Shown here piece by piece: positions 3,341-13,546 of a stretch of DNA of 64,000 nucleotides. Positions within the stretch are counted from its first letter, which is position 1, and each line of letters begins with the position of its first letter. The stretch covers positions 372,001 to 436,000 of the forward strand of contig NZ_JAGHQP010000001.1 in assembly GCF_017744255.1 (NCBI RefSeq), written 5' to 3'. This DNA is from Brevundimonas sp. A19_0. Its GTDB lineage: Bacteria; Pseudomonadota; Alphaproteobacteria; Caulobacterales; Caulobacteraceae. Under the pieces are notes generated by a model. The model had not been told where the DNA came from. It did no database searches and saw only the letters and a list, made by a program, of their open reading frames with translations. Made by a program: the position numbers and the translations under genes.

Positions 3341-4153
3341 ATGCCCCTGCCCTCCCGGAACGAACCCTCGTCCCGCCGGCCCTTCAGGTTTCCCAGTCCC
3401 GTTTTCGATGTGACCCGCACGATCGCCGCCTCTGACCTGTCCGGCCGGACCGCTGCCCCCGCCCGGTCCGACCAATGGCCGGTGCGCCTGAAGGGGGTGA
3501 CGTTCGGCCATGCCGGACACCCCGACCTCTTGCGGGGTATCGATCTCACTGTGACGGGGGGCTCTTTCAACTTCCTTACCGGGCGGTCGGGGGCGGGCAA
3601 GACACTGCTGTTGATGGTGGTCGCCGGACTGGTCCGGCCCGATGCCGGACAGGCGCAGCTGTTCGGCAGCGATCCCGAGCGATTGCCGCGGAGCGAGGCC
3701 CGGGCCCTGCGCCGCCGGATCGGGCTGATCGCCCAGGATGATCCGCTGGTCGGCCATCTCAGCGTGGCCGACAATCTGGCCGTCACCCTGAGGGTCACGG
3801 GCCAGTCGCCGGACGGGCGCGAGGCGGACCTTGAGGCCATGCTGGCGTTCGTCGGACTGACGAGCGAAGCCGGGCGCCGGGCAGACACATTGTCGCGCGC
3901 CGAGCGGCGTCTGGTGGCGCTGGCCCGGGCCATGATGACGGGGCCGGACCTGATTCTGGCCGATGAGCCGCTGGCCGGGCTGGATGCCGCGTCGGCGAAG
4001 CGCATGCTGGGCCTGCTGCGGACCCTGAACCGACAGGGGACCACCGTCATCCTGACCCGCGACGGGGACGGCCCGGGCAGCGAGGCGCGCAAGGGGGATC
4101 GGCGCCTGCATCTCGAGGCCGGGCGTCTGACCGGTGGCGAGGGCGCATCATGA
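3341..4153 (+). CDS. ftsE: Cell-division ABC ATPase FtsE, divergent
   Basis: A 270-residue ABC ATPase. With FtsX it would activate septal peptidoglycan hydrolases at the division site. Walker A GRSGAGKT is at 81-88, the Q-loop glutamine at 132, and Walker B LILADE at 204-209. Two normally invariant elements differ: the LSGGE signature reads LSRAE (184-188), and the switch histidine after the last strand is replaced by Arg240 (LTRD instead of ATHD). The first ~45 residues are an unusual polar extension, so a GTG at 3410 is an alternative start. FtsE is identified mainly by the overlapping ftsX. Reduced or altered ATP hydrolysis is inference. Confidence 0.85.
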   Translation: MPLPSRNEPSSRRPFRFPSPVFDVTRTIAASDLSGRTAAPARSDQWPVRLKGVTFGHAGHPDLLRGIDLTVTGGSFNFLTGRSGAGKTLLLMVVAGLVRPDAGQAQLFGSDPERLPRSEARALRRRIGLIAQDDPLVGHLSVADNLAVTLRVTGQSPDGREADLEAMLAFVGLTSEAGRRADTLSRAERRLVALARAMMTGPDLILADEPLAGLDAASAKRMLGLLRTLNRQGTTVILTRDGDGPGSEARKGDRRLHLEAGRLTGGEGAS

Positions 4154-5040
4154 AGCGGCCGGCCCTGTTGAGCGGACCGGATCTGTGGCCGGACGGGGGC
4201 ACCACCCGCCGGCTGGGTCTGGTGGTGCTGACCGTGCTCGGCCTGCTGAGCGCGCTGCTGATTCTGGCCCATGTCGGGGCCAGCCGGGCGGCGGGCGACT
4301 GGGCCAGCGCGGTGACGCACGAGGCCACGGCCCTGATCCGTCCGCGCGCCGACGAGACCGGCGCGACCGCGGCGGCGCGGGGTGCCGAAGCCCTCTCGGG
4401 CGTGCGGGGCGTGGAGGAAGCCGTGGCCCTTGACCGGTCCGAGGCCGAGGCCCTGCTGAGGCCCTGGCTGGGCGAAGCCGATCTGGCGACCCTGCCCCTG
4501 CCGCAACTGGTACGGCTGCGCCTCGACCCGCGCGAACCCGCCAGCGCCATCAGCCTGAACCGGGCGCTGGCCGAGGCGGGAGTGGACGGCACCGTCGACG
4601 ACCACAGCCTGTGGCGGAACAGTTTCACGGCCGCGGCCCGGACCCTGCGCATCCTGACGGCGCTGGCCGCCGGGATCGCCGTCCTGCTGACGGCCACGGC
4701 AGGCGTGCTGATCGCCCGGCAGGCCGTCGAGAGCCGGGCAGAGACCTTGCGGGCCCTGCGTCTGGCGGGGGCCGATGACGCCGCCTTGACCACCCTTGCC
4801 CAGTGGCATCTGGGGCGCGACGCCGCGCTGGCGGGAGCCGCCGCGACCCTGATGGCCCTGCTGGCCGGACTGGCGCTGGCCCTGTTTCCGCCCGGCGGGA
4901 CGATCGGGCAGGTGTTCCCCCTGCTGATCGAGGATCTGGCGCTGGTCCTGCCCGTGCCCGTGGCCATGGCGACACTGGCTGTCGTGGCCGGGCGCCTGTC
5001 GGTCCGGCTCTGGCTTGGCAGGGCGCGGGGCGGTCGCTAG
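4150..5040 (+). CDS. ftsX: Cell-division permease FtsX
   Basis: A 296-residue FtsX-type membrane protein and partner of FtsE. It has one membrane segment near residues 24-45, a periplasmic domain (about 50-160), and three further segments near 168-190, 225-245 and 258-285. The cytoplasmic stretch RAETLRALRLAGADD between segments 2 and 3 is the conserved FtsX region that contacts the ATPase. The ATG at 4150 overlaps the ftsE stop (ATGA), showing tight coupling. The protein would transmit ATPase cycles to periplasmic cell-wall hydrolase activators. Length and topology are normal, in contrast to the unusual FtsE motifs. Confidence 0.9.
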   Translation: MKRPALLSGPDLWPDGGTTRRLGLVVLTVLGLLSALLILAHVGASRAAGDWASAVTHEATALIRPRADETGATAAARGAEALSGVRGVEEAVALDRSEAEALLRPWLGEADLATLPLPQLVRLRLDPREPASAISLNRALAEAGVDGTVDDHSLWRNSFTAAARTLRILTALAAGIAVLLTATAGVLIARQAVESRAETLRALRLAGADDAALTTLAQWHLGRDAALAGAAATLMALLAGLALALFPPGGTIGQVFPLLIEDLALVLPVPVAMATLAVVAGRLSVRLWLGRARGGR

Positions 5041-5049
5041 TTAAGCATC

Positions 5050-5691
5050 ATGCGGTATCTGGCCCTCCTCGCCATTCTCGCGCTTGTGTGGCTGGTCGGC
5101 CTGTTTGCCTTTGCCGACCGGGTGCGGAGCTATACCCCGACCCGGGACCCCGCCCCCGCCGACGCCATCGTCGCCCTGACCGGGCCGTCGTCGGAGCGGG
5201 TCGATGCCGCCATCCGCCTGCTGGAGAACGGCAAGGGCGACCGGCTGCTGATCTCGGGCGTCAACCGGCAGGTGCAGAAGTCCGAGCTGAAGGCGGTGAC
5301 CCCCGGCTCGACCCGGCTGTTCGCCTGCTGCGTCGATCTGGGGTTCGAGGCCGAGAACACCATGGGCAACGGCCAGGAGATCGGCCGATGGGCGCGGTCG
5401 CACGGCTATGACAGCCTGATCGTGGTGACCTCGGACTATCACATGCCGCGCAGCCTGATGGAGATCCGCAGCGCCCTGCCGGGGGTCGAGCTGACCCCCT
5501 ATGCCGTCAAGACGCCCGAGCTGGACGACCGCGGCTGGTGGCGGGCGGCGGTGACGGCCCGGCGCATGACGCTGGAATACATGAAGTATCTGACGGTCAT
5601 GGTGCGCGAGGGCGTGCGGCGCATCAGCGGTGACCGCTCGGCCGATGCCGTGCAGGGCGTGGCCGAGGAAGCCGCGAAGAAGGCCCGCTAG
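5050..5691 (+). CDS. YdcF-like DUF218 membrane protein
   Basis: A 213-residue protein with one N-terminal membrane anchor (about residues 3-22) and a DUF218 domain. Visible family features are DAIVALTGPSSERVDAAIRLLENGKGDRLLISG split over the first strand-helix unit, the acidic ENTMGNGQEIGRW helix, and the HMPRS motif after the TSDYHMPRS strand. Family members such as SanA and ElyC affect envelope integrity and lipid-carrier handling, but the reaction is not established. It starts 9 bp after ftsX and its stop directly abuts the plsC start, so ftsEX, this gene and plsC look like one envelope operon. Confidence 0.85.
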   Translation: MRYLALLAILALVWLVGLFAFADRVRSYTPTRDPAPADAIVALTGPSSERVDAAIRLLENGKGDRLLISGVNRQVQKSELKAVTPGSTRLFACCVDLGFEAENTMGNGQEIGRWARSHGYDSLIVVTSDYHMPRSLMEIRSALPGVELTPYAVKTPELDDRGWWRAAVTARRMTLEYMKYLTVMVREGVRRISGDRSADAVQGVAEEAAKKAR

Positions 5692-6396
5692 GTGACCACC
5701 GTCCGCTCCCTGCTGTTCGTCGCCTGGCTGTACCTGTCGATGGCGATCTTCGCCCTCCTGCTGTCGCCGGTGCTGCTGTTCGGCTCGGGGGCGTCGATGG
5801 GGGTGATCAAGGGCTGGGCCCGGTTCGTGCTGTTCGGCCTGCGTGCCCTGTGCGGGGTCGGGGTCGAGGTGCGGGGCCTGGAGCACCGGCCCGACGGTCC
5901 CGCCCTGATCGCGGGCAAGCATCAGGGCATGCTGGACGTGATCGCCCCCTTCACCTTCCTGTCCAACCCCTGCTTCGTCATGAAGAAGGAGCTGATGGTC
6001 CTGCCCTTCTTCGGCTGGTTCGCGGCCCGGACCAACATGATCGCGGTGGACCGCTCGGCCCATGCGGCGGCGCTGAAGGGCATGGTCCGGCAGGCCCGCG
6101 AGCGCCGCGACGAAGGCCGGCAGGTGCTGATCTTCCCCGAAGGCACCCGCACCGCGCCCGGCGCGGCGCCGGACTACAAGCCCGGGATCGCCGCCCTGTA
6201 CCGCGACCTGGACTGCCCTTGCGTGCCCATGGCGACCAATGCGGGCCAGCACTGGCCGGCCCACGGGTTCCGCCGCACCCCCGGCACCGTGGTCTATGAG
6301 TTCTTGCCCCCCATCCCGCCCGGGCTGAAGCGGGCCGAGTTCATGACGCGGCTCGAGACCGAGCTGGAAGCCGCCTCCACCGCCCTGCTCAACTGA
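5692..6396 (+). CDS. plsC: 1-acyl-glycerol-3-phosphate acyltransferase
   Basis: A 234-residue PlsC-type acyltransferase that converts lysophosphatidic acid to phosphatidic acid at the inner membrane. The catalytic HX4D motif is His77-QGML-Asp82, and the substrate-binding FPEGTR motif is at 148-153. The N-terminus has a hydrophobic anchor over residues 6-30. Start is a GTG at 5692, immediately after the TAG of the DUF218 gene, so no intergenic base remains and expression is probably coupled. Alternative lysophospholipid substrates cannot be excluded because several paralogues exist in many alphaproteobacteria. Confidence 0.9.
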   Translation: MTTVRSLLFVAWLYLSMAIFALLLSPVLLFGSGASMGVIKGWARFVLFGLRALCGVGVEVRGLEHRPDGPALIAGKHQGMLDVIAPFTFLSNPCFVMKKELMVLPFFGWFAARTNMIAVDRSAHAAALKGMVRQARERRDEGRQVLIFPEGTRTAPGAAPDYKPGIAALYRDLDCPCVPMATNAGQHWPAHGFRRTPGTVVYEFLPPIPPGLKRAEFMTRLETELEAASTALLN

Positions 6397-6453
6397 ACCC
6401 TCCGGCCTGCGGGTTGTTGTCCCCCCGGGCGATGCCGCCTGCGGGAGAGCACG

Positions 6454-6939
6454 ATGAACTGGATGGACATGCTGTTTCAGGGCTGGAGCGGGCTGGCCCG
6501 CACGGCCGTGGTCGCGGTGCTGGCCTATGTCGGGCTGGTGCTGTTCCTCCGGATTTCGGGCAAGCGGACCCTGTCCAAGCTGAACGCCTTTGACCTGGTG
6601 GTCACGGTGGCGCTGGGGTCGATCCTGGCGACGACCCTGCTGAACAAGGACGTGGCCCTCGCCGAGGGGCTGGTCGCGCTGGCCAGCCTGATCGCCCTGC
6701 AGTTCCTCGTGACCTGGTCGTCGGTGCGCTTCCGCTGGCTGCGCGAGGGCGTGCGGTCCGAGCCGACAGTGCTGGTCCGCGACGGCCGGCCCCTGCCCGA
6801 GGTGCTGCGGCGCGAGCGCGTCACCGAGGACGAGGCCACCAGCGCCGTCCGCGACGCCGGCGGCCGGACCCTGGCCGAGGCCGAGGTGGTCATACTGGAA
6901 AGCGACGGCTCGCTGACGGCCATTCTGGCGCGCACCTAG
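6454..6939 (+). CDS. YetF-like DUF421 membrane protein
   Basis: A 161-residue protein of the DUF421/YetF family. Three membrane segments occupy about residues 14-32, 46-64 and 66-86, with the family signature RISGKRTLSKLNAFDLVVTV between the first two. A cytoplasmic YetF domain follows, with the RDGRPLPEVLRRERVTEDE segment. In Bacillus, relatives are linked to spore germination and envelope properties; in proteobacteria the role is unknown. A purine-rich GGGAGAG lies before the ATG. The TAG stop overlaps the TAG of the convergent yaiI gene within a shared CTAG at 6936-6939. Confidence 0.85.
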   Translation: MNWMDMLFQGWSGLARTAVVAVLAYVGLVLFLRISGKRTLSKLNAFDLVVTVALGSILATTLLNKDVALAEGLVALASLIALQFLVTWSSVRFRWLREGVRSEPTVLVRDGRPLPEVLRRERVTEDEATSAVRDAGGRTLAEAEVVILESDGSLTAILART

Positions 6940-7391
6940 CCCCCCGCCCGTTTGGCCACGACCACGGCCCGGTCCAGCGCCTGCAGGAAGTTGGAGCGGT
7001 CGCGCGCCGAGAACGGCGGCGGGCCCGAGGTCTCGACCCCCATGCCGCGCAGGTGCTCGCCGATCGAGCGCCCGGCCAGGGCCGAGCCGATCGAGTCAGG
7101 GGTGAAGGCCGTGCCGTTGGGCCGGAGCGCCTGGGCCCCGGCCTTGAGACAGCGGTCGGCCAGCGGAATGTCGGAGGTCACCACAATGTCGCCGGGCCCC
7201 GCCCGTTCGGCGATCCAGTCATCGGCGACATCGGGCCCGGCATCGACCACCACCTGCTCGATAAAGGGCGCGCGGCGCAGGTTGATCCAGCCGTTCGAGA
7301 CGACAAGGGCCTTGAACCCTACCCGCTCGGCCACGCGGAAACACTCCTCCTTCACGGGGCAGGCGTCGGCGTCGATGAAGAGGTGGTGCAT
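6936..7391 (-). CDS. yaiI: YaiI/YqxD family DUF188 protein
   Basis: A 151-residue protein of the UPF0178 family, a PIN-like fold. The N-terminal IDADACPVKEE motif with clustered acidic residues and the later VVTSDIPLADRCL segment are diagnostic, and NGTAFT with the terminal FSARDRSNFLQALDR are also typical. Family members are presumed nucleases from the fold and acidic residues, but no substrate is established. The ATG at 7389-7391 gives the normal family length. The open frame upstream runs through tandem 9-bp repeats and is unlikely to be translated. It converges on the YetF gene. Confidence 0.88.
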   Translation of the reverse strand: MHHLFIDADACPVKEECFRVAERVGFKALVVSNGWINLRRAPFIEQVVVDAGPDVADDWIAERAGPGDIVVTSDIPLADRCLKAGAQALRPNGTAFTPDSIGSALAGRSIGEHLRGMGVETSGPPPFSARDRSNFLQALDRAVVVAKRAGG

Positions 7392-7397
7392 GGGTTT

Positions 7398-7523
7398 GAG
7401 TGGTGAGTGGTGAGTGGCGAGAAAGACCGTCTGAATAGTCTGAATCGTCTGAAACGGGTCGGCGGGGGAGCGGGAATTCAGACCGTGAAAAATACCGTCT
7501 GAATCGTCTGAATGGTCTTGATG
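7398..7523. repeat. Clustered 9-bp GTCTGAATN tandem repeats
   Basis: Three tandem 9-bp units of GTCTGAATN lie at 7429-7455 and three more at 7497-7523. An inverted copy (ATTCAGAC) at 7476-7483 can pair with the second cluster. Beside them, three copies of a GAGTGGT-like heptamer occupy about 7398-7418. The array is in the leader region of yaiI (minus strand) and upstream of the DUF559 gene (plus strand). The units differ at one or two positions, so the array is slightly degenerate. Function is unknown; a repeat-binding site or slippage product are both possible. Confidence 0.75.
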
Positions 7524-7635
7524 GGTCCGGGTGGGGGCAGCGAGGTCCGGCAGCCTAACACGGCCGGAAGGTGTGCTGATAAGATTGGGGGGAGGCGTTG
7601 AGGAAGAGGCGCGGCATGAGCGGCGAGTTGCACGG

Positions 7636-7992
7636 ATGACCGCCGGGCGGCTGACCCCGCTCGGCCGGGCATTGCGCCAGCGCGGCGGCATGGCGGAGGC
7701 GCGAATCTGGGCACGGCTGCGGGGTGGGGCCATTGATGGATGGAAGGTCCGGCGCCAGCATCCGGTCGGGCCCTATGTGGTCGACTTTGCCTGCATCCCC
7801 CTGCGGCTGGTCATCGAGATCGACGGCGGGGTGCACGGGCGCGATGACGTCGTGCTGAACGATCACATCCGCCAGCAGGCCATCGAGGCGCTGGGCTGGA
7901 CCGTCGTGCGGTTCACCAACGATCAGGCGCTGGCCGAACCGGCGCGCATCGACGCGGCCATCCGGGAGCAGGCGAAGGCGCTGGGGCTGTAA
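7636..7992 (+). CDS. DUF559 endonuclease-like protein
   Basis: A 118-residue protein with a single DUF559 domain, a PD-(D/E)XK fold related to very-short-patch repair endonucleases. Visible features are the TPLGRALRQR helix, the LRGGAIDGWKVRRQHPVGPYVVDF run spread over strand 1, and the catalytic-type VVDFAC-x7-VIEIDGGVH segment with Asp, Glu and His. The C-terminal LGWTVVRFTNDQAL block is also typical. The ATG at 7636 matches the usual family N-terminus better than an upstream in-frame GTG at 7531. Such small nucleases are often mobile and their substrates are unknown. It sits between two repeat regions. Confidence 0.82.
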   Translation: MTAGRLTPLGRALRQRGGMAEARIWARLRGGAIDGWKVRRQHPVGPYVVDFACIPLRLVIEIDGGVHGRDDVVLNDHIRQQAIEALGWTVVRFTNDQALAEPARIDAAIREQAKALGL

Positions 7993-8001
7993 ACTCCTGA
8001 T

Positions 8002-8186
8002 CCTTCTCCCGTTGGGAGAAGGTGGCCGCGAAGCGGTCGGATGAGGGTCGGCGGTGGCCTTCGGCGTGAGCCGTCGTAGCGCCGGTGCCGCGGCTCACGC
8101 CGACGGCCACCCTCGCCCCTCACCCTTTCGCGCAAGGCCGCCCGCTTCGCGCGCGGGCGCTCAAGCCCTCTCCCATCGGGAGAGGG
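8002..8186. repeat. Large REP-like nested hairpin element
   Basis: An intergenic mirror-image element. It is bounded by two perfect 9-bp hairpins with 3-nt loops: CCTTCTCCC/GGGAGAAGG at 8002-8022 and CCCTCTCCC/GGGAGAGGG at 8166-8186. In the centre, 20-bp arms at 8054-8073 and 8091-8110 pair with one mismatch. A further stem CGCCCGC/GCGGGCG lies at 8139-8159. The outer flanks (GGATGAGGGT and the complementary CCCTCGCCCCTCACCC) also pair imperfectly. Such elements are dispersed in many alphaproteobacterial genomes. It separates the DUF559 gene from grpB and could act as a bidirectional terminator or mobile repeat. Confidence 0.8.
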
Positions 8187-8231
8187 TCACGCTGGGCTTG
8201 ACCGCCCCCTGCCCCGTCGGGAACATGGCCC

Positions 8232-8846
8232 ATGCCCAGACCCGTTGTGCTTGTTTCCCATGATCCCGCGTGGGCCGCGCAGGCGGAGGCGTTGGGGGCC
8301 GGGGTGCGGGCGGCGGGGGCGGGGGTGTTCCGGGCGGTGCACCACATGGGCTCGACGGCCATTCCCGGGATTCCGGCCAAGCCGGTGATCGACCTGCTGG
8401 CCGAGGTCGAGGCGCTGGAGGCGGTCGAGGGCGCGCAGGCGTCGCTTGCCGCCCTGGGCTGGCGCTGGCGGGGCGAGAACGGGCTTGTGGGGCGGCGCTA
8501 TTTCACCCGTGACGATCCGGCGACCGGCACCCGCGTCGCGCACCTGCATGTCTATGCGTCCGGAGACCCGGCCATCACCTGGCACCTCGCCTTCCGCGAC
8601 CGCCTGCGCGCCGAGCCGGCCACGGCGGAGGCCTATGCGCAGGAAAAGGCCCGCTGCGCCGCCCTCCACCCCGACGACAGCGCCGCCTACACCGCCTGCA
8701 AACAGGCCTGGACGGATGCCGTGGCGGCGGAGGCGGTGCGGGGGGTGGGAATCGTGGGCCCCAGAGCCGAAGGGCGTCAGTCGTTAATCTCCGGGACTTG
8801 GAAGATCAACGGATTAGAGGACGTGAGCGCCTTCCCCGAAATATAG
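8232..8846 (+). CDS. GrpB/UPF0157 family protein, altered C-terminus
   Basis: A 204-residue GrpB-family protein with the nucleotidyltransferase-like core: HHMGSTAIPGIPAKPVIDLL gives the GST and DxD-type positions, followed by the LHVYASG-like strand and FRDRLRAEPATAEAYAQEK helix. Relatives include the dephospho-CoA kinase C-terminal extension; the activity is unknown. The last ~30 residues (after AVRGVG) do not resemble the family and are read antisense through the 3' end of the HerA gene (8777-8846). The native end was probably replaced when the AT-richer neighbour arrived. Confidence 0.82.
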   Translation: MPRPVVLVSHDPAWAAQAEALGAGVRAAGAGVFRAVHHMGSTAIPGIPAKPVIDLLAEVEALEAVEGAQASLAALGWRWRGENGLVGRRYFTRDDPATGTRVAHLHVYASGDPAITWHLAFRDRLRAEPATAEAYAQEKARCAALHPDDSAAYTACKQAWTDAVAAEAVRGVGIVGPRAEGRQSLISGTWKINGLEDVSAFPEI

Positions 8847-10819
8847 GCATGACGCGCGCGAAGCGTCGGCAATACCTTGGCTGAGTCCTCTCCGAGCAGA
8901 CTCCCTAAGAAATCGAAGCTCGTTCGGTCGAACTGGCGAAAAGCGATAATAGTGTTGCACTGAGTAAGTATAGTTTTTGATACATTGGCAGTCCTCTGAG
9001 CTACGACTATAAGACCAATGCCATACTTTCTTCCCTGAAGCGCTATTTGCGCTATGCTGTTCACGAGGCCCTTCGTCCGCCCATCTTGGGAAGTCAGGAA
9101 GGCCGTTTCAGGCACGATCGTATGTGCCTCTTCCAAAACGAGAGACAATCGCCCGTCAATCTCCCCGGACTTCGCCATTCCAAACAATGTCGTGGAAAAC
9201 CAACGCAAGTATTCTACGTTCTCTGATGAGCTATCAAGGTCGGCAACCCCCATAACTGCGATCCTCTTGTCGCTATCGAGGAATGTTTTTATAGACGATT
9301 TGAAATGCTCGGTGATGGTAGACTTGCATTTTGCAATGCCCGCTCGGTCTCTCTTGTTCGCAAACTCCGCCTCTTCTTTCACAAGCCAAGCGATGCATCG
9401 AGCAATCGCTTCGTCGGTTTCCGGATTCACAAGCGGTTTGGATTCTTGGCCAAAATATTTGGCGTATTCACCGGTCAGATCGACGCAAATGCAACGAGCG
9501 CCTTTGGCCACCAAATCCCTGATGAACTTTCTGACGAATACGGACTTTCCGGTCCCTGTGACGCCCAGAACAGCGCAATGGTGGGTGATGAGGTCATCGA
9601 AATTCACGTTGATGCTAAAGTCAGTGCCAGGCAGCACGCCTAGCGTGATCTGATCGGGTCGAGCAGGGTTGTCTGGCAGGGATGGCCTTATTCGGATGAT
9701 GCCATTGATTCCCGGCAGCCATCCGTGCGCGTCAAAGCGCTCTTGCTCGACAGACCAAAAGCCGATCTGACGAGCGGAAACGAAGATCTCGGTGTCGCGG
9801 TCTAATACCGACACCCGCTCTTCCACCAGAGTCGCGTCTGTCACTTGGTAAACGACGGTCCGGTCGCCGACGACGGTATGGACCAAGTCCCCTGCTGAGA
9901 GCGTAGTGACGCTTGGGAAAGTCTGAAATCGTAGCGCACTGATCGTTGTGTGGGGTGCGACAATCCCGACGACGTCGTCGCGCTCGATATCAACTCCGAT
10001 CGGCGGAGAAGCCACTTCGTTGCGCTTGGGACCACCTCCCGCGAGGTACTGGGGGACGATCTCGCCCGGCATCTCGACAAACTCAAAAAGGTCTTGGTCA
10101 TTCGCACGGAGGGTCCGCGTCACGAGCCCGACTATTCTCCCCTCATCCGTCGGCGCGGCGATGCAGGCACTTAGAACCGTGGGGGCGCGCCGGAACGCTC
10201 TGACCAAATGCCGGCCATCCGACCGAAGCGCTTCAAGCGTCCCTAGCGTCAGCCCTGTGGGGCGCCGACGGAAGAATCCACCAACCCGCGAAGCCACATC
10301 GGGGCGCATGGTGTTTATTGCAGCGCAACTGACCAAGCAGAACGCAGTCAGGCGCTCATCTGGTACAACAACGAGCGGAAGGCACACGAGGGCGGTAGAC
10401 GTAATGACGCGAGAAGGCGTGGCTCTTGAGAGGACGGCGTGCAGGGCCGCAGAAATACGTCGCGCCAAGTCCGAGTCCCCGTCACGCGCTGCCGAACTGT
10501 TCAGCACCACCGTCGCGGCGGAGGACGCTGCTAACGCACCCAGCCCGACCGCAACGAGGACGAAAAGCCATCCGTTCTGCGTGGCTAGCTCTCGCAACGA
10601 GAACCAGACCCCGATCGTGAGGAGCGAGGTTGCAAGCGTATCTGAAGGCTTAGAGAAGAATGGCTCCACAACGAACGTTGTGACGACCAGCGCGGTCACC
10701 AATCCGATAGCAAGCCAAGCCTCTGAGGATACAGGCCGATGCAGCCCAAGCCCCACCAAGAGTGCAAGCTCCACAAGAGCGACTAGAGCGAGTAGCGCTA
10801 CCCGAGCCTTCAGTGACAT
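8777..10819 (-). CDS. Membrane-anchored HerA/DUF87-type ATPase
   Basis: A 680-residue P-loop ATPase of the HerA-FtsK superfamily. The N-terminus has about four or five hydrophobic segments (near residues 6-26, 34-56, 62-76, 84-108 and 140-155), then a beta-rich region (about 215-395) consistent with a HAS-barrel. The motor has Walker A GVTGTGKS at 419-426, Walker B LSLVLEEAH near 558-566 and the HerA-type segment AQRTANVSKTILTQCNT near 607-623. ATG at 10819 is preferred; a TTG at 10867 is possible. The gene is visibly AT-richer than all neighbours and its 3' end overlaps grpB by 70 bp, both signs of transfer. HerA proteins pump or process DNA, often with a nuclease in defence systems, but no nuclease partner is adjacent. 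Confidence 0.83.
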   Translation of the reverse strand: MSLKARVALLALVALVELALLVGLGLHRPVSSEAWLAIGLVTALVVTTFVVEPFFSKPSDTLATSLLTIGVWFSLRELATQNGWLFVLVAVGLGALAASSAATVVLNSSAARDGDSDLARRISAALHAVLSRATPSRVITSTALVCLPLVVVPDERLTAFCLVSCAAINTMRPDVASRVGGFFRRRPTGLTLGTLEALRSDGRHLVRAFRRAPTVLSACIAAPTDEGRIVGLVTRTLRANDQDLFEFVEMPGEIVPQYLAGGGPKRNEVASPPIGVDIERDDVVGIVAPHTTISALRFQTFPSVTTLSAGDLVHTVVGDRTVVYQVTDATLVEERVSVLDRDTEIFVSARQIGFWSVEQERFDAHGWLPGINGIIRIRPSLPDNPARPDQITLGVLPGTDFSINVNFDDLITHHCAVLGVTGTGKSVFVRKFIRDLVAKGARCICVDLTGEYAKYFGQESKPLVNPETDEAIARCIAWLVKEEAEFANKRDRAGIAKCKSTITEHFKSSIKTFLDSDKRIAVMGVADLDSSSENVEYLRWFSTTLFGMAKSGEIDGRLSLVLEEAHTIVPETAFLTSQDGRTKGLVNSIAQIALQGRKYGIGLIVVAQRTANVSKTILTQCNTIIAFRQFDRTSFDFLGSLLGEDSAKVLPTLRARHAYISGKALTSSNPLIFQVPEIND

Positions 10820-10872
10820 CCTGCCCCCCCAGAACGCCCGTCCCCTGACGATAACGTTGCTACTCAACTTCC

Positions 10873-10886
10873 CCTACGAACGTAGG
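10873..10886. promoter_or_regulatory. Palindrome upstream of the HerA gene
   Basis: A perfect inverted repeat, CCTACG-AA-CGTAGG, lies about 54 bp upstream of the preferred HerA ATG and within the 90-bp AT-richer gap before clpB. Its position and symmetry fit a repressor operator or a short hairpin in the leader. No cognate regulator gene is adjacent, so the role is inference. Confidence 0.4.
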
Positions 10887-10957
10887 TTAGGCAAGGACAC
10901 CAGCTAACGTAGTGGGCCAAGCGTATATCGTGAGAGCCTTGTGCTCTTCGAATGCCC

Positions 10958-13546
10958 CTAATGCACCCGCGCCTTGCCGATCTCCAGTCCGTCGGTCCCC
11001 GCTGACACACCGATCACCGACCCGTCCTCGATCTCGCCGGCCAGCAGTTTGCGGGCGATCGGGTCGACCAGCTCCTTCTGGATGACGCGTTTCAGGGGGC
11101 GGGCGCCGTAGACGGGGTCGTAGCCCTTGTCGGCCAGCCAGGCGGCGGCGGTGTCGTCGAGGGCGAGGGTCAGGCGGCGGTCGGCCAGCAGTTTTTCGAA
11201 GCGCTGCAGCTGGATGCGGACGATGCCGCCCATCTGTTCGCGGCCGAGGCGCTGGAACAGGACGATCTCGTCGATGCGGTTCAGGAACTCGGGCCGGAAG
11301 TGGGCGCGGACGGCCTCCATGACCACGGGGCGCACGGCCTCCACATCCTGACCCTCGGGCTGGTCGGCGAGCGCGGCCGAGCCGAGGTTGGAGGTGAGGA
11401 TGATCAGGGTGTTCTTGAAATCGATGGTACGGCCCTGGCTGTCGGTCAGGCGACCGTCGTCCAGCACCTGGAGCAGGACGTTGAAGACGTCGGGGTGGGC
11501 TTTCTCCACCTCGTCGAACAGGACGACCTGATAGGGGCGGCGACGGACCGCCTCGGTCAGGGCACCGCCCTCGTCATAGCCGACATAGCCGGGAGGGGCC
11601 CCGATCAGGCGGCTGACCGAGTGTTTCTCCATATATTCCGACATGTCGATGCGGGTGATGGCGGCCTCGTCATCGAACAGGAATTCGGCGAGCGCCCTGG
11701 TCAGCTCGGTCTTGCCGACGCCGGTGGGCCCGAGGAACAGGAAGGAGCCGAGCGGGCGGTTGGGGTCGTTGAGGCCGGCGCGGGCACGGCGCACCGCATC
11801 GGAGACGGCGATGAGGGCGTCTTCCTGACCGACCACGCGGGCGCGAAGGGCGTCTTCCATGGAGAGCAGTTTTTCGCGCTCGCCCTCCAGCATCTTTTCG
11901 ACGGGCACGCCGGTCCAGCGGCTGACGACGGCGGCGATCTGTTCGGCGTCGACGACCTCGGGGGTCAGCGGGCCGGCCTTGTCCGCCTCATTGGCCTCGG
12001 CCTCTTCCAGCTGGCGCTCGATCCCGGGGATCTGGCCATAGGCGATCTCGGAGGCGCGGCCGAGGTCGCCGTTCCGCTGGGCGGTGACCAGTTCGGCGCG
12101 CAGGCGGTCCAGCGTCTCGCGCAGCTGGGCGGACTGGCCGACCTTTTCCTTTTCGGCCTTCCAGCGGTTGGTGAGGTCATCGGACTCGGCCTGGAGTCCG
12201 TCGATTTCAGACTCCAGTTTCTCCAGCCGCGTGCGGGAGCCGGTGTCGGTTTCCTTCTTGAGCGCCTCGCGCTCGATCTTGAGCTGGACCAGACGGCGGT
12301 CGATCTCGTCCAGGGCCTCGGGCTTGGAATCCACGGCCATGCGGACGCGGCTGGCGGCCTCGTCGACCAGGTCGATGGCCTTGTCCGGCAGGAAGCGGTC
12401 GGTGATGTAGCGGTTCGACAGGGTGGCGGCCGCGACGATGGCGCTGTCGGAAATGCGCACGCCGTGGTGGACCTCATACTTCTCCTTGAGGCCGCGCAGG
12501 ATGGAGACGGTGTCCTCGACCGTCGGCTCCTCGACGAAGACGGGCTGGAAGCGGCGGGCGAGGGCCGCGTCCTTCTCCACGTGCTTGCGGTACTCATCCA
12601 GCGTCGTGGCTCCGACGCAGTGCAGCTCGCCGCGCGCAAGGGCGGGCTTCAGCAGGTTGGAGGCGTCCATGGCGCCGTCGCCCTTGCCGGCCCCGACCAG
12701 GGTGTGCATTTCGTCGATGAAGAGGACGATCTGGCCCTCGGCGGCGCCGACCTCGTTCAGCACGGCCTTGAGGCGTTCCTCGAACTCGCCGCGGTATTTG
12801 GCGCCGGCGATCAGGCTGCCCATGTCCAGCGCCAGGACCTTCTTGTCCTTGAGCGATTCCGGCACGTCGCCGTTGACGATGCGGAGCGCCAGACCCTCGA
12901 CGATGGCGGTCTTGCCGACGCCGGGCTCGCCGATCAGGACGGGGTTATTCTTGGTGCGGCGGGCGAGGACCTGGATGGTGCGACGGATTTCCTCGTCGCG
13001 ACCAATGACCGGGTCGACCTTGCCGTCGCGGGCGGCCTGGGTCAGGTCGCGGGCGTAGCGTTTCAGGGCGTCATAGGCGTCTTCGGCGCCGGCGCTGTCG
13101 GCGGTCTGTCCCTTGCGCAGTTCGGTGATGGCGGCCTCGAGCTTGTCCGGGGTCACGCCGACCGAGCCGAGCACGGTCGCGGCCACGCCGCCGTCCTTGG
13201 CGATGGCGCTGAGCAGGCGCTCGGTGGTGACGAACTGGTCGCCCGCCTTTTTGGCGGAGGCCTCGGCCGTGGCGAAGACGCGGGCGGTGTCGCCGTCGAG
13301 GTACAGCTGGCCCGAGCCGCCGGAGACCTGGGCACGCTTTGACAGGGCCGTTTCGACGGCGCGCTCGGCCCTGGCGGCATCGCCGCCTGCGGCCGTGATC
13401 AGATTGCGGGCGAGGCCGTCGCGCTCCTCGAGCAGCACCTTGAGCAGGTGTTCGGGCGCGAACTGCTGGTGCCGGCGGGCCAGCGCCAGCGACTGGGCGG
13501 CCTGGACGGCGGATTTGGCGCGGTCGGAGTAGAGGTCGAGATTCAT
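10958..13546 (-). CDS. clpB: ATP-dependent disaggregase ClpB
   Basis: An 862-residue Hsp100 chaperone that with DnaK pulls apart protein aggregates. It has the N-terminal Clp repeat domain, first AAA+ module with GEPGVGKT Walker A and LFIDEMH Walker B, a long coiled-coil middle domain (about 400-530, rich in Glu/Lys/Arg), and second AAA+ module with [19 protein letters not shown] Walker B and the GARPLKR sensor-2 motif near the C-terminus. The coiled-coil insertion separates ClpB from ClpA/ClpC. Length is normal. I could not identify a convincing heat-shock promoter in the 160 bp before the start. Confidence 0.97.

Follow-up and report, generated by a model that had tools for sequence, protein, structure and literature searches.

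HerA motors are already known in defence, and the HerA immune systems described in the literature examined pair the motor with a nuclease or an NADase. In the DUF4297-HerA complex the nuclease binds the HAS domains of the ring and DNA enters at the opposite base (PMC11291478); archaeal HerA works with NurA in repair. Here we consider a gene that departs from these arrangements. It lies in a 64,000-nucleotide stretch of the Brevundimonas sp. A19_0 genome (contig NZ_JAGHQP010000001.1, forward-strand positions 372,001 to 436,000; hereafter the window) and is the sole occupant of the slot between a convergent grpB and the upstream clpB. Its 680-residue product is almost certainly a membrane HerA, and as judged from sequence it probably represents a form of bacterial defence not yet described, one that deals with invading DNA at the cell membrane. 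A sequence-only reading of the window, made without database searches, had proposed a single-gene defence or DNA-exclusion system at this position. The gene and the parts of its product, in window coordinates, are as follows.

8777..10819, minus strand: membrane-anchored HerA gene, 680 residues, ATG start, stop codon at 8777-8779
10271..10819, minus strand: helical membrane bundle at the N terminus (residues 1-183), of probably six membrane helices and an amphipathic helix
10064..10252, minus strand: extra small beta barrel, residues 190-252, with a weak likeness to the N-terminal (HAS-type) barrel of the F1-ATPase beta subunit
9620..9979, minus strand: HAS barrel of HerA type, residues ~281-400, from structure-model alignment
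8780..9619, minus strand: HerA RecA-like motor with a helical insertion, residues ~401-680
9542..9565, minus strand: Walker A, GVTGTGKS, residues 419-426; G419, G422, G424 and K425 invariant in 81 alignment rows
9122..9142, minus strand: Walker B, LVLEEAH, residues 560-566; E563, E564 and H566 invariant in the same 81 rows

A HerA motor fused to a membrane bundle

The coupling of N-terminal membrane segments to a HAS barrel and an intact HerA motor, already suspected from the letters of the sequence, is borne out, with probably six helices rather than the four or five first counted. The motor matches DUF87 in Pfam (PF01935; E = 4.6e-16, 60 bits against a cut-off of 23.2), with weaker matches to TrwB and FtsK beside it, and the HerA models of PADLOC match the protein as well (best 8e-32). 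All 15 of its NCBIfam matches lie far below their cut-offs, including those to the curated equivalogs for antiphage HerA (79.3 bits against 800 and 71.5 against 850). The HerA clade has been defined by a sensor-1 glutamine and an arginine finger just upstream of it (PMC10853773). Across the 81 family rows both Q608 and R597 are invariant, and strand 601-607 stops just ahead of Q608; R597 is, on our own reading of the alignment, the putative arginine finger. Alignments of the structure model to HerA chains begin near model residue 280, at chain residue 1-13, and run through to the end, thereby taking in the HAS barrel. The membrane nature of the N-terminal segments also held when checked across the family, in which hydrophobicity is conserved: at least three hydrophobic segments occur in 78 of the 80 uncut family open reading frames (ORFs; 19-residue hydropathy window).

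Comparison with known systems

The closest described systems, HerA-DUF4297 and HerA-SIR2 (Nezha, GAO_19), include a DUF4297 or SIR2 gene, whereas neither adjoins the window herA. Indeed, Pfam finds no nuclease or NADase gene beside it, the neighbours being GrpB and ClpB, and a DUF559 gene beyond grpB belongs to the background synteny; the proposed absence of a nearby nuclease gene thus stands. The window protein further differs from these systems in carrying a membrane bundle and an extra barrel on the side where the nuclease docks in DUF4297-HerA, which agrees with the suggestion that a membrane domain takes the nuclease's place. Its family also forms its own clade against the HerA proteins of the order, a tree that leaves the solved HerAs outside.

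Two kinds of membrane-associated DNA motor offer instructive parallels. TdtA of Thermus thermophilus, a membrane-localised HerA-superfamily ATPase required for DNA donation by Thermus cells, forms a HerA/FtsK-superfamily hexamer on the cytoplasmic membrane, has been proposed to drive DNA out of the cell, and shares an operon with a restriction enzyme (PMC5365140). Part of this protein, of about 64 kDa, is recovered as soluble, and its gene lies on a mobile island next to a NurA-like gene (PMC5365140); in the window protein the membrane bundle is integral, and its genome gives no NurA match. The other parallel is with TrwB/TraD/VirD4 and FtsK, whose motor fold the window protein matches. In these proteins a membrane anchor precedes a hexameric DNA motor. 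The window protein differs from them in its HAS barrel, in scores below the NCBIfam cut-offs and in a setting in which no conjugation or division context is seen; with a TraD-type model of conjugation coupling proteins it reaches 28.5 bits against a cut-off of 521.

Among multi-gene systems, HerA/FtsK motors in anti-invader systems have been proposed to intercept invader DNA (PMC10853773, PMC12839542). DndFGH and BREX-related capture systems comprise several genes including a nuclease, and the excerpts available describe no membrane-fused HerA in them. MADS was considered on account of its mad8 ATPase, whose PADLOC model matches the window protein at E = 4.2e-22, but was rejected because herA is in no operon with other mad genes, its neighbours being grpB and clpB by a Pfam scan. 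PrrC and RloC resemble the relatives described below in being an additional ATPase gene within an hsd operon; they are ABC-type anticodon nucleases, whereas in the window protein, a membrane HerA, no nuclease domain is recognised.

A separate and patchily distributed family

A protein search in which 8000 candidates were scored yielded 11 rows, one of them the window protein itself, and a scan of a genome collection matched 142 relatives, of which 80 were kept. The family is found in many bacterial phyla and in one archaeon. In a tree built with 12 HerA proteins of the same order for comparison, the 81 family rows split from those 12 on a branch with a Shimodaira–Hasegawa-like approximate likelihood ratio (SH-aLRT) value of 100, and the 12 have at most one hydrophobic segment within their first 250 residues; by this sequence tree, membrane HerA is a separate clade. 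Its phyla are interleaved, with Alcanivorax and Polaromonas amid Bacteroidota and Candidatus Methanofastidiosum amid bacteria, which indicates transfer.

The distribution closer to home is equally patchy. Vertical inheritance of close homologues beside clpB or grpB would have refuted the first proposal; instead, none of the 36 other genomes of the genus has a full-length relative (the match in G013 covers the motor alone and is to an ordinary HerA), and in the class the family is carried at E <= 1e-60 by 6 of 385 genomes, this one among them, each in a different taxonomic family. The DNA itself is AT-richer than its flanks, as first noted: in 500-base windows the guanine-plus-cytosine (GC) content of herA is 50-63% against 66-75% in adjoining windows, and the gene lies some 10-15 GC points below its neighbours. 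Together with the other cargo found in the same slot of the two nearest genomes, the composition and the patchy spread uphold the proposal of a horizontally acquired island. One copy of the family, on a plasmid of Bradyrhizobium sp. 155 (L025, 9035-11253), matches in two pieces over two annotated genes, and because of this split it looks broken.

The slot after clpB as a cargo hotspot

Where the gene was inserted can be placed by comparison with the nearest genomes by ClpB, G028 (99% identical) and G004 (95%). Both match the window at the nucleotide level over 4001-8745, with gaps, and over 10957-13546, so that synteny is kept on both sides of a slot with these edges:

8745..8777, no strand: left edge of the cargo slot; the match to the closest genomes ends at about 8745, at the grpB 3′ end, and the grpB frame continues into the cargo
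10820..10957, no strand: right edge of the cargo slot, the gap from the herA start to the clpB stop codon; the relatives' match resumes at about 10957

Between grpB and clpB, G028 has a DUF6932 gene and a 321-residue gene, and G004 a GIY-YIG gene and a 210-residue gene; this cargo is AT-rich too. The pattern extends beyond these two genomes. Of 60 other genomes of the genus, 55 yielded the flank, two flanks being too short for the GC test. The lowest 400-base GC falls below 58% within the first 2 kb after clpB in 34 of 54 genomes; at 2.5-4.5 kb it does so in 2 of 44, the same 44 giving 31 in the first 2 kb. Mean GC within 1 kb is 60.5% on the 3′ side of clpB versus 69.4% on the 5′ side (in the 28 loci, of 30, whose flank was long enough), and the low-GC cargo is mostly confined to one genome each. 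The region 3′ of clpB is a genus-wide cargo hotspot.

Sixty-three low-GC hotspot ORFs were listed, of which Pfam scans covered 38 and 16, with 9 outside the scans. The 38 proteins include GmrSD, FRG, CAP12/Pycsar TIR, RelA/SpoT, HipA-like, guanylate cyclase and DUF4365 families and, further, DUF6602, DUF559, Polbeta, GIY-YIG and a ClpX zinc finger. Pfam names in ten cargo proteins are KAP NTPase, FRG, CAP12/Pycsar TIR, phage integrase and GIY-YIG, five having no match; another eight give DUF6932, GIY-YIG twice and, below cut-off, DUF6998, four having none. In total, CAP12/Pycsar TIR is named twice, FRG twice and GIY-YIG four times. Several of these are antiphage families, as their Pfam names in part show.

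Two observations on the hotspot stand on their own. Two cargo proteins of 168 and 251-269 residues recur as a pair in three genomes of the genus, at L144 (7722-8983), L182 and L185, and the L144 pair has no Pfam match. Across hotspot loci L140-L155 and L182-L220 the cargo consists of small AT-rich genes, several of them defence-like and many unnamed.

Neighbourhoods of the relatives

The suggested recurrence in defence islands was followed up in 85 fetched loci, in which genes were called by a crude longest-ORF method. One locus (L089) gave no herA ORF and contig ends cut the ORF in four (L051, L078, L092, L096), leaving 80. By tblastn, type I restriction genes are present in 22 of the 85 loci and in none of 20 distant control regions, the test loci being longer (1.39 Mb in 85 versus 0.24 Mb in 20). 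Genes like HsdM, HsdR or HsdS, labels given to clusters named from annotated Arcobacter members in L028, lie within six genes of herA in 19 of the 84 loci with a called herA. With PADLOC at 1e-10, 267 models matched among 117 near genes versus 7 among 120 control genes; since the type I models are redundant, these are counts of models and give no ratio of genes. Relatives recur beside defence genes more than distant control genes do.

In several phyla the association is intimate, with herA frames that overlap or nearly touch type I genes (L085, L100, L082, L063 and L087). Given with the bases between longest ORFs, the orders are hsdS(-1)herA(-11)hsdR in L085, hsdS(-25)herA(-1)hsdR in L100 and hsdM(-4)herA(-4)hsdS in L087. 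The 99 nearest neighbours in 59 further loci, contig-cut ORFs excluded, include Methylase_S (6), ResIII (4), N6_Mtase (3), Eco57I (3) and HSDR_N (2), along with single type II genes Eco47II and EcoRII-C. On plasmids, a Bradyrhizobium relative adjoins an abortive infection gene, an Aminobacter relative has AbiE genes and two reverse transcriptase genes in its vicinity, and an Arcobacter relative is part of a type I restriction operon that also includes RhuM and SLATT genes. Hence the defence interpretation survives in part: the setting, in hotspot cargo and restriction neighbours, is one of defence, but the solitary habit seen in the window does not hold throughout, some relatives being inside type I operons. 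In those operons of other lineages, membrane HerA may act as a partner instead of on its own.

Possible roles of the membrane HerA

The explanation that we favour, with moderate confidence, is a horizontally carried anti-invader gene that encodes a membrane-anchored hexameric double-stranded DNA motor. A role in defence as such appears likely from sequence and setting: two independent lines, the clpB cargo hotspot and the relatives beside restriction genes, point to it, the imported gene occupying a chromosomal position that in sister bacteria houses other antivirus-like genes. Interception of DNA at the membrane is a more tentative proposal, made by analogy and favoured because TdtA suggests that a membrane-localised member of the superfamily can push DNA out of a cell and because HerA/FtsK motors have been proposed to intercept invader DNA in nuclease-bearing systems. 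Six copies would assemble into a ring anchored in the inner membrane; its motor would lie in the cytoplasm, and its HAS face, which carries the nuclease in the solved DUF4297-HerA, would be turned towards the membrane. As DNA in that complex comes in at the base opposite the nuclease-bearing HAS domains, the membrane bundle would be on the exit side and, if polarity is kept, DNA would be driven towards the membrane. Invading DNA, engaged by the ring during or soon after entry, would be drawn up against the membrane or across it and could then neither circularise nor be transcribed or packaged; in lineages with hsdS-herA-hsdR, the ring would keep DNA in place for the type I enzyme or deliver DNA to it. 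In a bolder version, which we regard as doubtful, this one protein would suffice for immunity: a HerA ring spanning the membrane, with HAS barrels in tandem as its stalk, would seize DNA where it enters and expel or jam it without any nuclease, and in some lineages it would have become a membrane-tethered partner wired into type I operons.

Several points weigh against this explanation. The structure model is of a monomer, from which the hexameric ring would have to be assembled by analogy, and the pumping direction is assumed from relatives. The AT-rich pocket after clpB is absent in 20 of the 54 genomes, and with 13 families of one member each among the 38 cargo proteins, at least 25 have no Pfam match; the slot is therefore rich in defence genes, but its cargo is perhaps wider than defence. 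Loci without type I genes are the majority (65 of 84 by gene clusters, 63 of 85 by tblastn), in the 20 loci whose contigs supplied the controls the type I count is 3 versus 0, and some neighbours look housekeeping-like or metabolic, such as glycosyltransferases and a peroxiredoxin.

The main rival, which we consider less probable, is a guard or abortive-infection effector: on detecting foreign DNA, DNA ends or a restriction enzyme put out of action, the motor would turn over ATP and thereby open or distort the bundle, and the infected cell would stop growing in the manner of PrrC. It is the placement of herA within type I operons that brings PrrC to mind: the overlapping hsdS-herA-hsdR and hsdM-herA-hsdS genes are placed much like prrC, which lies within the EcoprrI operon and whose product is latent until set off by a disabled restriction enzyme (PMC3874165, PMC2610378, PMC12707154). 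Most loci, however, have no type I operon, Pfam finds no toxin domain in the window protein, and its bundle has no convincing match to a known channel or pump, the last of these counting against the favoured motor as well. The other cargo of the slot includes TIR, RelA/SpoT and HipA-like proteins, which we take to be possibly of a suicidal type and which would suit a guard.

Alternatively, the ring might only present DNA to a nuclease acting in trans, for instance a type I enzyme or a host nuclease encoded elsewhere in the genome. Two HSDR_N proteins on other contigs of the same genome, the relatives within type I operons and the nucleases or SIR2 borne by solved antiphage HerA rings (PMC11291478) are all in keeping with this; yet the genome has no NurA match, no neighbour cluster occurs in more than 15 of the 84 loci, and the window copy has no companion between grpB and clpB, so that we think this role unlikely. 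A DNA export or conjugation coupling protein like TraD, VirD4 or TdtA, aiding the movement of a mobile element rather than defence, we judge very unlikely. The 25 families listed in each neighbour tally, a part of the full lists, include no relaxase or secretion genes; one Bradyrhizobium plasmid does have a relaxase about 9 kb from the relative. Least probable is an ordinary DNA-repair or chromosome-handling HerA that is incidentally membrane-bound: archaeal HerA does serve repair with NurA, but an AT-rich gene whose full-length relatives are missing from all 36 other genomes of the genus, in a slot where relatives hold unrelated cargo, is hardly what housekeeping would predict.

We found no description of a membrane-fused, nuclease-free HerA defence protein in the open-licence literature, as far as its available excerpts go, and an earlier mention is possible; within that scope, a clade of this kind with so wide a spread appears new. 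A widespread membrane-anchored HerA clade would suggest that immunity can work by displacing or obstructing DNA at the membrane rather than cutting it, and its placement in type I operons would make membrane HerA testable as an accessory of type I restriction enzymes. More candidate defence genes, as yet uncharacterised, can be drawn from the clpB slot in this genus.

Minor features of the left flank

The grpB frame (8232-8846) overruns the breakpoint into the cargo and has 204 codons, versus 171-181 in four relatives. Beyond it, the DUF559 nuclease-like gene (7531-7992) overlaps a DUF188 gene on the opposite strand and is kept in G028 and G004. Near grpB, window positions 7990-8190 hold a repeated GC-rich intergenic element with a palindromic end, copies of which are present in L143, L149 and L151.
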